42,606 bases of DNA from Candidatus Methanoflorens crillii (lineage in GTDB: Archaea > Halobacteriota > Bog-38 > Methanoflorentales > Methanoflorentaceae), in NCBI GenBank assembly GCA_003162175.1, contig PMMR01000056.1, positions 20,737 through 63,342 on the forward strand. Direction: 5' to 3'. Below are positions 24,136-31,781 of the stretch, piece by piece. A program made the translations under genes and the position numbers. Below the pieces are notes generated by a model. The model had not been told where the DNA came from, searched no databases, and was given only the letters and a program-made list of their open reading frames with translations. The number at the start of each line of letters is the position of its first letter. The stretch's first letter is position 1.

Positions 24136-24335
24136 AATATCCCCCCTTTAACGAGTCGTCCCCAAAGAATTGAGCTACGCTTTATTCTTTTTAAGAGTCG
24201 CTTTGTAAGCCCTTGCAAGCAGCTTAAACGTTATGATTTAGCTGCGCACGTTTCATACGTCGAAAAACTTAGTTTAGCGCACCGACCAGTCGAATCATTA
24301 AGGTGTAGAGCTGACCAACCTGGCGCTTTAACGCA

Positions 24336-24716
24336 TCACACTCGCGCCAAAGACGTTAAGTTCCCAAAGAAGAGGTTTCCTATGCCAACGCCGAGCATCG
24401 TCAATACAACTGCAAACACGATGAGGATGATGACGAGGACTACAAGTGCAATAATTTCAGCGATTGCGAGAACAAATCCAAACCGTATGCCAAATCCGAT
24501 GAGCCCCCCAAAGCCGAGATGCATCAACTCATCGAGCGCGTTACGCGGTGGCTCAGGTAGCTCATCGCTTGCGCTATACGACGAGATATCTGCCTCCTGA
24601 GGCGTAGGCGTCGACGCATTCTGCGGTAGTGGTTCGCCACAACGTCTGCAAAACTCAGCATCTGCGTAGTTAACGGCCATGCATTTTTCACACATAATGC
24701 GGTCTGCTTCTTCCAT
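24336..24716 (-). CDS. Zinc-ribbon membrane protein (126 aa)
   Basis: The N-terminus CEKCMAVNYADAEFCRRCGE gives a zinc ribbon with two CX2C pairs. A polar linker rich in Pro, Ser and Glu follows, then two adjacent hydrophobic segments (LGFGGLIGFGIRFGFVLAIA and ALVVLVIILIVFAVVLTMLG) that may form one hairpin or two spans, ending GNLFFGNLTSLARV. The family of 'zinc-ribbon domain plus membrane tail' proteins is large and mostly uncharacterised in archaea. It lies upstream of, and in the same direction as, the related protein at 23386-24135 with a 200-bp gap, so the two might share a transcript or each have a promoter. Confidence 0.65.
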   Translation of the reverse strand: MEEADRIMCEKCMAVNYADAEFCRRCGEPLPQNASTPTPQEADISSYSASDELPEPPRNALDELMHLGFGGLIGFGIRFGFVLAIAEIIALVVLVIILIVFAVVLTMLGVGIGNLFFGNLTSLARV

Positions 24717-24754
24717 GTTACCAGATCCTGCGGATTATTTTCGGCTTAACTGTT

Positions 24755-25495
24755 TTAGTCTTTCGGGCCGAATATCCGAGACCAAAAACCGACTTTGGGA
24801 GCAGGTAATCGCAACGTCAGCAATTCGACTTGCTTCTGCATCGTCTCCTTATCGGCTTTCAGTTCAAGCGAGTGGCCTTTCTCAACTTGCAGTGCCGCTT
24901 CGAGGCTTGTTTTATCCTTTTCCAGGAGCTCAACGCGGTGCTGCAGGCCAGTGACAACAACTTTTTTCGATGCTTCTGATTCCCGCAGCGTTTCCAGCAA
25001 AGAGCGGTGGCGCTCTTCAGCTTCTTTCAGATTGGCATCTAGCTTCTGCGTGACACTTTCAAGTTCTTCAAGTGAGTTCTCTAGCTGTTGGATACTCGCA
25101 GAACGGTCTGCCTTAATCTGTTGTATTTGCTTCTCACAGTCGGTGCGGATTTGCTGTAACTCAGCATCATACTCAGCAACAAGGTTTGCAATCTTTTTCT
25201 CGTGTTCGTCACGCACCCGCTGCACGATGCTTGCGCTTTCCGCGCGCTGATTTTGGACTTGTTTTTCGTATTCCGCACGTTGCAGCTGCAACGCCTCTTT
25301 AGAACTTGCTTGCAATGCAGCTATCTCACGCTTATAGTCGGCTAGTGTTTTTCTCTCTGCGTAATGCTCTTCGACGATCTGGGCCAGAAATGCTGAGAGT
25401 GATTTACCCTCACTTGCCGCTTGTTTTTTGAGAAGCGATGCCAGGTCAGACGCTAATGCAATCGAATAGCGAGTTTTTCCGCTTTCCTGCGCCAT
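24755..25495 (-). CDS. Ribbon-helix-helix plus long coiled-coil protein
   Basis: 246 residues in three parts. Residues 1-50 (KTRYSIALASDLASLLKKQA, then GKSLSAFLAQIVEEHYAE) match a CopG/Arc-type ribbon-helix-helix DNA-binding domain. Residues about 55-225 are one long, highly charged coiled coil with regular heptads (for example EYEKQVQNQRAE, LEELESVTQKLDANLKEAEE). The last 16 residues, PAPKVGFWSRIFGPKD, form an aromatic/basic tail that could contact a membrane or partner. A DNA-binding head on a long coiled coil is also the layout of KfrA-like and some partition proteins. A helically phased TGCTGCA array starts about 60 bp upstream and is the obvious candidate site. GGGTGG precedes the ATG. 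The exact role is inferred. Confidence 0.75.
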   Translation of the reverse strand: MAQESGKTRYSIALASDLASLLKKQAASEGKSLSAFLAQIVEEHYAERKTLADYKREIAALQASSKEALQLQRAEYEKQVQNQRAESASIVQRVRDEHEKKIANLVAEYDAELQQIRTDCEKQIQQIKADRSASIQQLENSLEELESVTQKLDANLKEAEERHRSLLETLRESEASKKVVVTGLQHRVELLEKDKTSLEAALQVEKGHSLELKADKETMQKQVELLTLRLPAPKVGFWSRIFGPKD

Positions 25496-25637
25496 GTATC
25501 CACCCTGGTTTGGTCTTTTTCAATCTGTTGCAACGTTCCTGCAAATATTTCTCAATTGCAGCATCAACAAGCCTGTTATGCTGCATGCTTGCAGCACCAT
25601 TAAAACTTCCGAAACGGTCCAAAATAAATTGCTGCAC
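25446..25637 (-). CDS. Open frame running through the heptamer array
   Basis: The frame starts at GTG 25637 and reads MQQFILDRFGSFNGAASMQH, then NRLVDAAIEKYLQERCNRLK, which is convincingly protein-like. It overlaps the start of the ribbon-helix-helix gene by 50 bp. In the same frame it stays open upstream to about 25711 (INAALLVILAAREFKSAAHV), but without any start codon. It could be a real small regulator with an unrecognised start, the decayed tail of an earlier gene, or chance. The heptamers fall in different codon phases, so they are not simply repeated amino acids. Confidence 0.35.
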   Translation of the reverse strand: MQQFILDRFGSFNGAASMQHNRLVDAAIEKYLQERCNRLKKTKPGWIHGAGKRKNSLFDCISV

Positions 25638-25700
25638 ATGTGCTGCAGATTTAAATTCTCGTGCTGCAAGAATAACTAAGAGTGCAGCGTTGATGCTGCA
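25557..25700. repeat. Helically phased TGCTGCA/TGCAGCA array
   Basis: Seven perfect heptamers start at 25557, 25579, 25590, 25630, 25641, 25662 and 25694, and one 6/7 match (TGCAGCG) starts at 25683. Orientation is mixed (TGCTGCA or its complement TGCAGCA). Start-to-start distances are 22, 11, 40, 11, 21, 21 and 11 bp, all close to whole multiples of 10.5 bp, so every site faces the same side of the helix. The array ends about 60 bp before the ribbon-helix-helix gene at 24755-25495. It resembles an operator/centromere-like site for a cooperative DNA-binding protein. Confidence 0.75.
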
Positions 25701-26211
25701 GTTTTCACGTACTCACTCTTCCTGCTGCTTTTTGGGGGGCGGTCAGCGAGGCCACGGTCGCAGCGTCGTGACGAACAGTCGGTGAGGCCTTCACAGGTCG
25801 CAATCTATTAGTATGATTAGTATGATTAATATGTTTAACATACTCAAACTCAAGGGAGACGAAGACAAAATGCACGAAAGATACGAAGGAGATAGGGGAG
25901 TAGATTATCTGCTAAGACTTAGCACCGGCAGATATAACGAGAGAGGGCCCTCCAGCTCAACGTTTTCGAAAAGCAAGCGGCGTGCGGCAATAAAAGTGCG
26001 TTACGCTAATCCTAACAACAAAGAGACAAATACTGCGCCATCATACCGTTCCGCGCCGGTAACTTTTAACATCTTGGCAGGATGTATGCCGAGCATCTCG
26101 ATTCGTGCTTCTTTTGCGATATGAATCTCAATGAGTATTTACTAAGCATGGACATTTCAACCGATTGCTGTCGGGTGTGAATTTGAGGCGCAGCACACGA
26201 GAGGGTCATAC
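25701..26211. other. AT-rich direct repeats, no sure gene
   Basis: At 25808-25845 TTAGTATGA is repeated (25809 and 25818 regions) and AGTATG...CATACT forms an imperfect palindrome, which suggests a promoter or operator. The 103-codon frame at 25813-26124 starts inside these repeats, has a mixed composition and no family motif, and I do not accept it as a gene. Confidence 0.35.
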
Positions 26212-27216
26212 ATGACGTTTGCGATTGACGCGAGAGGGCTTGAAAAGGTTTACAAAGGCAACGTCGCGGCGCTAGCTGGCGTCGACTTGGACGTCAAAGC
26301 CGGCGACATCTTTGCATTGCTTGGACCCAACGGTGCGGGCAAGACGACGCTCATGCGCATTTTGACGACCCAGTTCAAACCGACGTCCGGCGAAGCGCAC
26401 ATTTTCGACCTGGACGTCGTCCGAGACGGCGCAGAAGTCAGGAAAGTGATAGGCTACGTCCCCCAAGAGACGAGCGTCTGGAGCGATATCAACGGCTACG
26501 AGAACCTCCTCATTTACGCCAAAATATACGGTCTACCGTCACGGTCACGAAAAGACGTTATCCACGACATGCTTGAGAGCATGGGGCTGCGCGCTCCCGC
26601 CGAGCATCTCGTGAAGACCTACTCAGGTGGCATGGTCAGGAAGCTCGAGATCGCGTGCGCGATGCTGATTAGGCCCAAGATTCTATTTCTCGATGAACCG
26701 ACGCTCGGACTTGATCCCGCAGCCAGAATCGCTGTGTGGGAGAAGCTGGTATCCTTCAAAGAGGAGTTTGGCACGACCGTATTTTTCAGCACGCACTATA
26801 TGGACGAAGCGAACGCCTACTCAGACGAGGTTGCAATTATCAACACGGGGAGGATGGTCACCTCAGGCACAGCCGACGAACTTAAGCACTCACTTCGAGG
26901 TGAGCTCATCAAATTCAGCTTGTCCGATCACCGCGTCGATGAGCATACGTTGGGTCGGATACGAGGCCTTGAACCAGTGAAAAGCGTCGTTGTTACTGAC
27001 TCCACCCTCAACGTGACCGTCGAGGACGCAGAAACCGCGCTGCCTTGCGTCATGGATGCACTCAGAAGCGAGGGAATCCCCGTCGAGCGAATAACGACCA
27101 CGAAGCCAACGTTGGAAGACGTCTTCTTGTGGTATGCGGGAACGACACGCGCGCCCGGCGCCGCCAGCTCGATAGGGCGAGTTGAGGGGAAGGCAGGAGG
27201 TACTCGCCGTGAATGA
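26212..27216 (+). CDS. ABC-2 exporter ATPase (DrrA-like)
   Basis: A 334-residue ABC ATPase with Walker A GPNGAGKT (residues 38-45), Q-loop glutamine at 85 (VPQET), signature YSGGM (137-141), Walker B ILFLDEP (157-163) and the switch histidine in STHYMDEA. The C-terminal extension after about residue 230 (LKHSLRGELIKFSL, RITTTKPTLEDVFL) is that of the DrrA/CcmA group that pairs with ABC-2 permeases. It is the nucleotide-binding subunit of an exporter for a drug, lipid or glycan; the substrate is unknown. The permease gene starts 8 bp before this gene's stop, so the two are translationally coupled. Confidence 0.9.
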   Translation: MTFAIDARGLEKVYKGNVAALAGVDLDVKAGDIFALLGPNGAGKTTLMRILTTQFKPTSGEAHIFDLDVVRDGAEVRKVIGYVPQETSVWSDINGYENLLIYAKIYGLPSRSRKDVIHDMLESMGLRAPAEHLVKTYSGGMVRKLEIACAMLIRPKILFLDEPTLGLDPAARIAVWEKLVSFKEEFGTTVFFSTHYMDEANAYSDEVAIINTGRMVTSGTADELKHSLRGELIKFSLSDHRVDEHTLGRIRGLEPVKSVVVTDSTLNVTVEDAETALPCVMDALRSEGIPVERITTTKPTLEDVFLWYAGTTRAPGAASSIGRVEGKAGGTRRE

Positions 27217-27973
27217 CTCCTTAAGGGTAGTGCTTGCAATGATAGAGCTCGAGCTTCGGCGACTTAGAAATGACCGGACGGAAGTGTTCACAAGGGCCGT
27301 TCAGCCCGTGTTGTGGTTAGTGGTTTTCGGAACGGTCTTCAGTCAGCTACACGCCATACCGACCAGTGGAATACCATACGTTGACTACATCACTCCTGGC
27401 GTCATGCTGCAGTCAGTCCTCTTCGTCGCCGTCTTGTACGGCTTGACGCTCGTGTGGGAGCGGGATACCGGTATCTTAAAAAAGCTTCTTGTGGCACCGG
27501 CTCCCCGATATGCGACTGTTATAGGCAGATCGATGTCTTCAGGCGTCAGAGCAATCATCCAGGTAGTAATCATCATACCCGTGGCGCTCCTCCTCGGCGT
27601 GAGCTTCATCCCCAACCCTGCCTACTTCGTCGCAGCGCTCGCAATATTATTCGTCATTTCCGGGGGGTTCGCCGCCCTCTCAATCATTGTAGCATCGTTA
27701 TTGAAAACCAGAGAGCGATTTATGGGAATCGGCCAAGCGCTTATCCTACCGCTCTTCTTTGCCAGCAACGCCCTTTACCCGATAGCGTCAATGCCTCGCG
27801 CAATCCAGATCGTCGCGGTTTTTAACCCGCTGACATATGCCGTAGATGCTGTGCGTGGACTAATGATCACCGGTAATCTGGCGCTCCTTCCGCTTGACGT
27901 TGCCGTCATAGCGCTTTTTGATATCCTCATGTTTGCAGTGGCTTCATTGAGCTTCCGGAAGATAATCGAATGA
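27209..27973 (+). CDS. ABC-2 type permease subunit
   Basis: A 254-residue protein with six predicted membrane spans and the ABC-2 permease pattern: an N-terminal cytoplasmic helix (ELRRLRNDRTEVFTRAVQPV), then LWLVVFGTVFSQL, the loop GIPYVDYITPGVMLQSVLF, ERDTGILKKLLVAPAPRYAT (coupling region) and a late LILPLFFASNALYPIASMP. I prefer the GTG at 27209 because AGGAGGT lies 8 bases upstream; a TTG at 27182 is also open. It overlaps the ATPase gene by 8 bp, so it forms the membrane half of that exporter. Confidence 0.9.
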   Translation: MNDSLRVVLAMIELELRRLRNDRTEVFTRAVQPVLWLVVFGTVFSQLHAIPTSGIPYVDYITPGVMLQSVLFVAVLYGLTLVWERDTGILKKLLVAPAPRYATVIGRSMSSGVRAIIQVVIIIPVALLLGVSFIPNPAYFVAALAILFVISGGFAALSIIVASLLKTRERFMGIGQALILPLFFASNALYPIASMPRAIQIVAVFNPLTYAVDAVRGLMITGNLALLPLDVAVIALFDILMFAVASLSFRKIIE

Positions 27974-28048
27974 TCAACCTATGATTCCCGCGTCTCGCAA
28001 AGGTTTATCAGCGATGCTTCCACAGAAAAGCGATACATTTTGAAAAAG

Positions 28049-29816: not shown

Positions 29817-31781
29817 CTAGCTGGCCTTGTAGATGTACGCGTTGCCAAATCTCGTCACTGCCGTGTAACCGTTTGATCTGAGGTAACTGTCAAAGGTGGT
29901 TCGATTGCTGTTCCCGAAGTTCTCCGACAGGATCACGTACTTGTAAAAGTCTCTGTCGCTTTGAATGGCGGCCTGTAACACAGCGGTGTTATTCGACACC
30001 TCGTCTCGGTACGCCATCGGCGAGGAATCAAACGCAGACGGGTTTGTGGTGTAGAACAACGCCTCGCGCTGCGAGGAGCTCGCGTTCGCAAACGGGTCGT
30101 TCGGGTTGGGGGGGGCGAAAAACGCCAGTGTCGTATGGTTGCCGGGGAGCTGGCCCACGTACCGAATCGCGTTGAAGTCGTCTTGTCCGATCACCGACTG
30201 GTACTTGTCGGTGCTTATGGCCCCCGCCGCATTGGTCGTAATGACAAGCGCTACCAGCACGACAGCGATAATTCTGCCCGGAGAGATAAGTGCAGATCTG
30301 CGTCCGAGAGATCGCTCGATCATGGAGACCCCGAGACCCGCGGCGGGTATGAGAACCGCTTGGGCATACGCCACGCCCCGCCCGAGGAAGATCTCAGCGG
30401 TCGCCGGAGCAAACGAAAAGTACACGGTTGACAGGGTCCAGCCGACCAGTATACCCAGGATGAATGCGAGCAAGACGAGATGAGAGAGCTCCCACTCTTT
30501 GGTCTCGATCAGAGAGCCTGCGAGTCCTACCACGGCGAGCGCCGCTATCAAGGGCGTTACGTAGAGGAGGATGTACGTCGGGTCGGGGTACATAATTTGG
30601 AGCGCAATCAGCGGGAGAACAGACTGCATCGCAAACGGCGCCGCCCCGATGGTGACGAGGGCTGGACTGAAGCCCTCGAACGGCGCCGCCCCGATGGTGA
30701 CGAGGGCTGGACTGAAGCCCGTCGGAATGCCGTAAACGATGAAGCGCCAGGCAAAGAGCATCAACCCGAGCACATACGTCGGAATAGAGACAATCGTCGT
30801 GAGCGTGTTCTGTCGTTTCATGAGCTGGGCAATCACCACGAACGCGAATATGAACGGTGTGTAGACCCCGTAGAGGATGTGAATGTCAATGGAGAGCCCC
30901 AGCACAAACGCGCCAGCTAGGAACGAACCCGCCTCTCGTGAAGCACAGAGATAGAGGCCAAAGAACACGAAATAGGTGCCCACGACCTGCATCATCGAGA
31001 TGTTCGTCCTCCAGAAGAGTTCAAACAGCGGGGACATTGAGCCAAACAAGAAGAGCGCGACGACTTTGCCGGATAGGCTCACATCGAGTCGCTCCAAAAC
31101 GGCGAGGAGCATTATGGAGGCCAAAACGCCGAACACGGGTCCGAACCAGATCGCCATGTCGACGACCGACGCGTTACCGATCATCGCAAACGACCCCATG
31201 GCGAACTCGAAGCTTCGCTCGCGGACAACGTCGCCAGCGCCGGCTGTCAAGAATGAAGGTATGCCCGTGAAGCCCGTGTGCACGAAGTAGGCCGCGCGGG
31301 TTGCCCAGTAGAGAGGATCAAAGTAGGGAATCGTGCCTACCGTCGCCGGATACCAGAGCCGTACAACACCCCCGAAAAGGAGCATCGCGATGATTATGAT
31401 ATTCTCAGGCTTGAGCAGGGCGGACGCACTGATAGGTGCCTGCTCACGGTTCAAGGCCAGGGCGAAAATGAACATCAGGGTCGTCCAAAGAAAGAGCGGC
31501 CCGACGATGGAGAGAGGACTTCCCGGTATCAGCAGGGCCGTGTACACGACTTCGAGAATGGCGAGGAAGACCACGCTAAAACCAATCGCTGTGCCGATCC
31601 TGCCTGCGACGCTTTGGTCTCCCAAGATGACGAGCGACGTAAAATACCCTGGGAAAAAAAAGAGAACAGCGCCAGCACAGAAGACCTGAATAATAGTCCC
31701 AATGGGGATTGCGAGCGGTATGCACAGCGCCAGAAAAATGAAATAGGCGACACTGATGGGCCTGAGACTCTGAAAATTCAT
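29817..31781 (-). CDS. Large polytopic membrane protein of the glycan locus, GT-C-like
   Basis: 654 residues with about 13 hydrophobic spans and a 130-residue C-terminal extracellular region (NATLAFFAPPNPNDPF-type segment with NHTT, NASS and NRTT sequons). The first 100 residues (AGAVLFFFPGYFTSLVIL, then a G-R-I-G-T motif) resemble the start of DUF1616 proteins such as that at 38913. The loop GTIPYFDPLYWATRAAYFV could be the acidic first loop of a GT-C transferase. A 15-residue tandem duplication, GFSPALVTIGAAPFE then GFSPALVTIGAAPFA, sits in a mid-protein loop. TATATAATC about 30 bases upstream fits a leaderless start. The likely role is glycan transfer or polymerisation at the outer face, inferred from its neighbours. 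Confidence 0.6.
   Translation of the reverse strand: MNFQSLRPISVAYFIFLALCIPLAIPIGTIIQVFCAGAVLFFFPGYFTSLVILGDQSVAGRIGTAIGFSVVFLAILEVVYTALLIPGSPLSIVGPLFLWTTLMFIFALALNREQAPISASALLKPENIIIIAMLLFGGVVRLWYPATVGTIPYFDPLYWATRAAYFVHTGFTGIPSFLTAGAGDVVRERSFEFAMGSFAMIGNASVVDMAIWFGPVFGVLASIMLLAVLERLDVSLSGKVVALFLFGSMSPLFELFWRTNISMMQVVGTYFVFFGLYLCASREAGSFLAGAFVLGLSIDIHILYGVYTPFIFAFVVIAQLMKRQNTLTTIVSIPTYVLGLMLFAWRFIVYGIPTGFSPALVTIGAAPFEGFSPALVTIGAAPFAMQSVLPLIALQIMYPDPTYILLYVTPLIAALAVVGLAGSLIETKEWELSHLVLLAFILGILVGWTLSTVYFSFAPATAEIFLGRGVAYAQAVLIPAAGLGVSMIERSLGRRSALISPGRIIAVVLVALVITTNAAGAISTDKYQSVIGQDDFNAIRYVGQLPGNHTTLAFFAPPNPNDPFANASSSQREALFYTTNPSAFDSSPMAYRDEVSNNTAVLQAAIQSDRDFYKYVILSENFGNSNRTTFDSYLRSNGYTAVTRFGNAYIYKAS
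30634..30720 (-). repeat. 45-bp in-frame tandem duplication
   Basis: The 42 bases 30634-30675 recur exactly at 30679-30720 (period 45). The duplication adds 15 residues to a loop of the membrane protein and is perfect at DNA level, so it is recent. Confidence 0.9.

Follow-up and report, generated by a model that had tools for sequence, protein, structure and literature searches.

Results

The window, by which we mean the whole 42.6-kb stretch of DNA analysed, carries on its minus strand a gene (24755..25495) for a 246-residue protein, P0001, with an N-terminal ribbon-helix-helix (RHH) head (residues ~8-46), a long helix (51-229) and a flexible tail that ends in GFWSRIFGPKD. Downstream on the same strand is a gene for a 126-residue zinc-ribbon and transmembrane protein (24336..24716), which is probably in one operon with the RHH-coil gene. 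On the other side of the RHH-coil gene are a putative phased operator array of TGCWGCA heptamers (25557..25700, minus strand), a promoter-proximal extension of this array (25526..25543, minus strand) and a candidate TATA element. The array and the two genes form a conserved unit (24321..25703, no strand assigned) whose identity to the orthologous locus in genome G001 ends 3 bp past the outermost site. The unit is found in a different genomic context in genome G004; the window copy adjoins ilvD and an ABC transporter, and the copies in the window, G001, G004 and G006 all lie among metabolic genes. The zinc-ribbon gene is kept in both orthologs of the TGCWGCA type and is not found beside the GTGTAT or GTGCAT types described below. 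Past the unit, the ~2.3 kb of the window that separate the array from ilvD (25704-28025) and hold an ABC transporter pair are unmatched in G001, whose identity to the window resumes at 28025. Farther along, a minus-strand gene of 654 codons contains a 45-bp tandem repeat in two perfect copies (30634-30720).

In the AlphaFold model of P0001, residues 51-229 form one continuous predicted helix of ~180 residues with pLDDT mostly above 90; the two RHH helices are in the expected place, and the strand is not modelled in the monomer. The Pfam family RHH_1 matches the window protein at E = 0.015, below the curated cut-off, and RHH_5 matches two relatives at E = 9e-5 and 1.4e-4. A PHROG Arc-like repressor is matched at 8e-4, and the family profile finds its top PDB hit in CopG (E = 0.014). 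On its strand-helix-helix order, hydrophobic core pattern and alternating ribbon contact residues, the head is assigned to the RHH (CopG/Arc/MetJ) superfamily. The gene is under purifying selection, with a dN/dS of 0.26 against G001 and of 0.11 in the RHH part. Searched by its C-terminal part in 394 genomes of the phylum, the family turned up in every one of the 7 genomes that represent the genus and in 0 of the 387 others; among the genomes compared this genus is alone in its family, and its next relatives belong to other families of the phylum.

Many genes of the genus, often broken ones, share the tail LRLPAPKVGFWARLFG (L063:5213-5782, L064, L065, L066 and L067), one of which carries an unrelated N-terminal domain, and we regard it as a lineage-specific mobile tail. 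A DUF4350/MoxR/DUF58 cluster at L062:8282-9934 (G003:C2) includes an in-frame fusion of the RHH-coil head with a MoxR AAA+ ATPase. In the G004 ortholog (L058:5382-6128, G004:C21), the reading frame of the tail is lost following LPAQ and apparently regained close to the end, reflecting either a frameshift or an assembly error.

Exact copies of TGCTGCA or TGCAGCA start at 25557, 25579, 25590, 25630, 25641, 25662 and 25694 and span 144 bp, with a 6/7 site (25683-25689) inside the array; these positions and their spacings are as claimed in an earlier, sequence-only reading of the window. Two further 6/7 sites, both in phase, make up the extension: TGCAACA (25526-25532) and TGCAGGA (25537-25543), the latter exact in G001. 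When one mismatch is allowed, ten sites run from 25526 to 25700. The candidate TATA element, AAATATTT (25543..25550, minus strand), was inferred from a pattern scan and lies between two array sites. Its counterpart in G001 reads TATATTT, and the pattern scan placed TATA-like elements among the array sites in the main types.

The clustering of these sites is far beyond chance. There are 395 TGCWGCA sites in the 1.82-Mb assembly, a rate at which ~0.03 would be expected in the array span and at which the probability of seven or more is 4e-15 per span and 8e-9 genome-wide. The window as a whole holds 17 sites against a shuffle mean of 6.9, and other heptamers in it reach at most 4 copies per 144 bp. 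Pairs of sites 31 bp or less apart occur at seven places in the assembly, five of them in this array. The array is the unique cluster of exact TGCWGCA sites, the form covered by the genome-wide search, in the 1.82-Mb assembly, and the heptamer is not equally dense elsewhere in the genome.

The seven exact sites are phased at 10.5 bp with R = 0.93 (p = 4.5e-4), and the ten sites obtained with one mismatch give R = 0.94 (p = 5e-5), which bears out the proposal that they face one side of the helix. The mixed orientation of the sites had also been offered as an argument for selection, and this argument falls: TGCTGCA and TGCAGCA are reverse complements and constitute a single pseudo-palindrome, TGCWGCA, so that orientation carries no information and reflects just the central A or T. 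A pseudo-palindromic site of this kind suits a symmetric dimer.

Phased arrays are conserved in the same place beside the orthologs in G001 (87% identity) and G004 (76-79%). This conservation and the uneven density of the heptamer answer two of the tests named in the sequence-only reading, and both turned out in its favour. About 30% of the spacer bases differ between the window and G001, and simulated drift at 30% leaves a mean of 0.7 exact sites, whereas G001 has six (P ~1e-4). At two positions with a 6/7 match in the window, G001 has an exact site, so individual sites turn over while their number and phase are kept. Compared base by base between the window and G001, conservation is 78% in sites versus 70% in spacers, a difference that is not significant (p = 0.19); we therefore base the case on how many sites are retained and on their phase.

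Such an array could in principle be a by-product of coding, if the minus strand encoded an alanine-rich amphipathic helix in which 3.5 residues equal 10.5 bp. One minus-strand frame indeed runs through the array without a stop and would place Ala-Ala pairs at heptad intervals. However, this frame has no ATG, GTG or TTG before the array, the first being mid-array, the sites fall in different codon phases, and a Pfam scan of the frame was empty. Moreover, single-base indels and stops disrupt the frame in G001, as do further indels in G004. Since neither ortholog has kept the frame open and both have kept the sites, we reject a coding origin of the repeats, to which we give almost no credence, and the suggestion of selection at the DNA level is upheld.

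Other members of the family have other heads and other arrays. A near-identical pair, G004b and G006, has nine GTGTAT/ATACAC sites in 300 bp at the same position, with one or two elsewhere on the respective contigs, and these too show 10.5-bp phasing (R = 0.84; p = 7e-4 and 3.5e-4). G005 has six GTGCAT/ATGCAC sites in 200 bp (R = 0.87, p = 0.007). In G003 there are three GTGTAT sites in 100 bp, a weak array that is too small for a good test of phasing (p = 0.27 with one mismatch). Motif choice was tested against 200 shuffles per upstream region, and in all regions except that of G003 the observed six-mer count exceeded that of every shuffle. Only three motif types are known (TGCWGCA, GTGTAT and GTGCAT), and the upstream regions contained no motif of another type, one GTGCAT in the GTGTAT type excepted.

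In these comparisons, the head predicts the motif. The heads of G003 and G004b are 73% identical and both are accompanied by GTGTAT, although the G003 coil has diverged, and either head is only ~30% identical to that of the window. The predicted DNA-contact residues of the ribbon, assigned by analogy with CopG, change with the motif (R-S-A versus R-N-T). When the window type is compared with the G004b type, the coil DNA is 86-88% identical, identity breaks off just after the head, and the upstream DNA is unalignable. Similarly, the coil has a dS of 0.3-0.48 (0.36 for the two copies of G004, which carries both the TGCWGCA and the GTGTAT type), whereas dS in the head is 1.1-2.3 or saturated. Since the coil is shared while the head and the upstream DNA cannot be aligned, head and array seem to have been exchanged together, and the simplest reading would be that one recombination replaced both. 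Of all the evidence for a head that reads the array, this co-exchange is the strongest; it strongly suggests that each head binds its own array, and it supports the link between array and gene that had been proposed from the window.

The neighbours of the family were scanned for a replicon or a partition partner. At L061:3952-6407 (G005:C226), the gene is followed by a small coiled-coil ORF, origin-like inverted repeats and Orc1/Cdc6. Two 26-bp inverted repeats (2 mismatches) flank AT-rich DNA between the ORF and Orc1/Cdc6, which we take to be the layout of an archaeal replication origin, and the locus looks like a replication origin module. G003 has a tail relative close to a Cdc6-like fragment. 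No partition NTPase (ParM, ParA or SegA) was found among the neighbours scanned; a NifH-like neighbour in G004 and G006, considered as a ParA partner, was rejected as it scores as Fer4_NifH. Phage records, plasmid records and viral contigs held no match, and a phage or plasmid origin by sequence was likewise rejected.

Discussion

We propose that the RHH/coiled-coil protein uses the neighbouring array as its cognate multi-site operator and acts as a cooperative autorepressor, and we consider this likely. The conservation of the array in orthologs, the change of motif with the head and the joint exchange of head and array all argue for the putative self-controlled operator first suggested for this locus. 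Against it weigh the RHH_1 score of the window protein below the curated cut-off, the non-significant base-by-base comparison, the weak array of G003 and the small number of motif types. RHH dimers would bind the TGCWGCA pseudo-palindromes, which are set at whole helical turns (~11, 21 or 42 bp), and would line up next to each other along one face of the DNA, with their coiled coils holding or linking them. The resulting cooperative nucleoprotein array may cover the promoter and repress the gene. Head and array would then be a single exchangeable specificity module, and the coil and C-terminal tail would carry a function common to all types. By analogy with KfrA, this common function is probably the maintenance or positioning of the DNA element that carries the gene. 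Since there is no other site cluster in the genome, the only evident target of the protein would be its own gene or that carrier element.

The order of these functions could also be reversed. The array may be centromere- or incompatibility-like and the protein may segregate or position a plasmid-like replicon, with autoregulation being secondary and the window copy integrated or domesticated. Such a maintenance role is plausible but speculative, and as the primary function we hold it possible without favouring it. The origin-like locus of G005 and the Cdc6-like fragment in G003 point in this direction. The arrays exceed the length needed for simple repression, and alleles of different specificity coexist in G004, as expected of compatible replicons. 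In C. perfringens, head specificity of ParR sets plasmid compatibility (PMC9426499). However, no ParA, ParM or TubZ adjoins any member scanned, and the copies in the window, G001, G004 and G006 have metabolic neighbours. The partition or DNA-bridging system entertained in the sequence-only reading is thus not established, as a cognate NTPase is not adjacent and the only link to a replicon is the G005 locus. A bolder form of this idea, which strikes us as rather unlikely, is a self-contained archaeal determinant of identity or segregation, in which the phased array and RHH head would be exchanged as a specificity cassette on a conserved coil and differently marked copies would coexist in a single cell without a dedicated NTPase.

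Two other roles deserve less credit than autorepression by the cognate protein. RHH antitoxins autoregulate through repeated operators, and P0001 could likewise be an autorepressor of antitoxin type, its toxin being either the zinc-ribbon membrane protein encoded next in the TGCWGCA-type orthologs or some other partner. The zinc-ribbon partner, however, is not kept beside the GTGTAT and GTGCAT types and matches no Pfam toxin family, and a 180-residue helix is atypical of antitoxins; we find this very improbable. MatP combines an RHH with a coiled coil, as the window protein does, and a chromosome organiser of the MatP or SegB type would bridge distant sites. SegB, an RHH protein of archaea, has sites close to the gene that encodes it, but its sites as a whole are scattered over the chromosome (39 peaks; PMC12284271). 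In contrast, TGCWGCA is clustered nowhere else in the genome studied here, its genome total of 395 is not above that of a reversed-pattern control (535), and SegA is not adjacent. An organiser thus seems improbable, if slightly less so than an antitoxin, and a global regulator or chromosome organiser was rejected because the genome has no further site clusters.

If this proposal holds, archaea would have an equivalent of plasmid KfrA in which another DNA-binding fold serves as the head. The most interesting feature of the system is the head-array exchange. The three natural pairs of head and array (TGCWGCA, GTGTAT and GTGCAT) would provide a ready test of how RHH ribbons choose their bases, and also of why such proteins need same-face spacing. 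The system would further suggest a tag for plasmid-like elements in an uncultured lineage of peat archaea.

Among known systems, KfrA of plasmids RA3 (IncU) and R751 (IncP-1) is the closest functional match. KfrA of RA3 is an autorepressor with a helix-turn-helix head and a coiled-coil tail, and the operator overlying its promoter has five 9-bp repeats, of either orientation, with a motif absent elsewhere on the plasmid (PMC7783346). Some KfrA-related proteins share the same head and have different tails (PMC7783346), and KfrA polymerises on its cognate DNA (PMC7821693). Like KfrA, the window protein has a predicted N-terminal DNA-binding head and a long alpha-helical coiled-coil tail (predicted helix 51-229). 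A putative operator array of repeats lies over its candidate promoter. Unlike KfrA, its head is RHH and not helix-turn-helix, so it is not a KfrA; a sequence relation was not found, and a Pfam scan of the window protein for KfrA_N gave no KfrA domain. The family is also archaeal and mostly located among chromosomal genes, with no match in the plasmid collection and one member, in G005, beside Orc1/Cdc6. Its sites are spaced by helical turns, and head and array are exchanged while the coil is kept.

RHH proteins on repeated sites are known from several partition and repressor systems. In ParR/parC (type II partition; R1, pB171 and pCW3), an RHH head binds repeats at about one helical turn upstream of parM, 11-bp in R1 and 10-bp in pB171, and the specificity of the ParR head separates families (PMC9426499). 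The locus described here differs in having no ParM, a long coiled coil, and pseudo-palindromic sites with irregular whole-turn gaps in place of regular direct repeats. The RHH protein omega (ParB) of pSM19035 binds as dimers to parS, in which 7-bp sites are arrayed in mixed orientation (PMC9499535); those sites are contiguous and the dimers spiral round the DNA, whereas here the sites lie on one face and there is no ParA partner. SegB of the Sulfolobales is an archaeal RHH protein that binds palindromes upstream of its own locus (PMC12284271), but it has a ParA-like SegA and scattered chromosomal sites, compared with one array and no adjacent SegA here. AvtR of Acidianus filamentous virus 6 is an RHH repressor that protects ~100 nt near its own promoter, consistent with oligomerisation along the DNA (PMC5569661). 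Both AvtR and CopG resemble the window head as RHH repressors, but they are much smaller and without a coiled coil.
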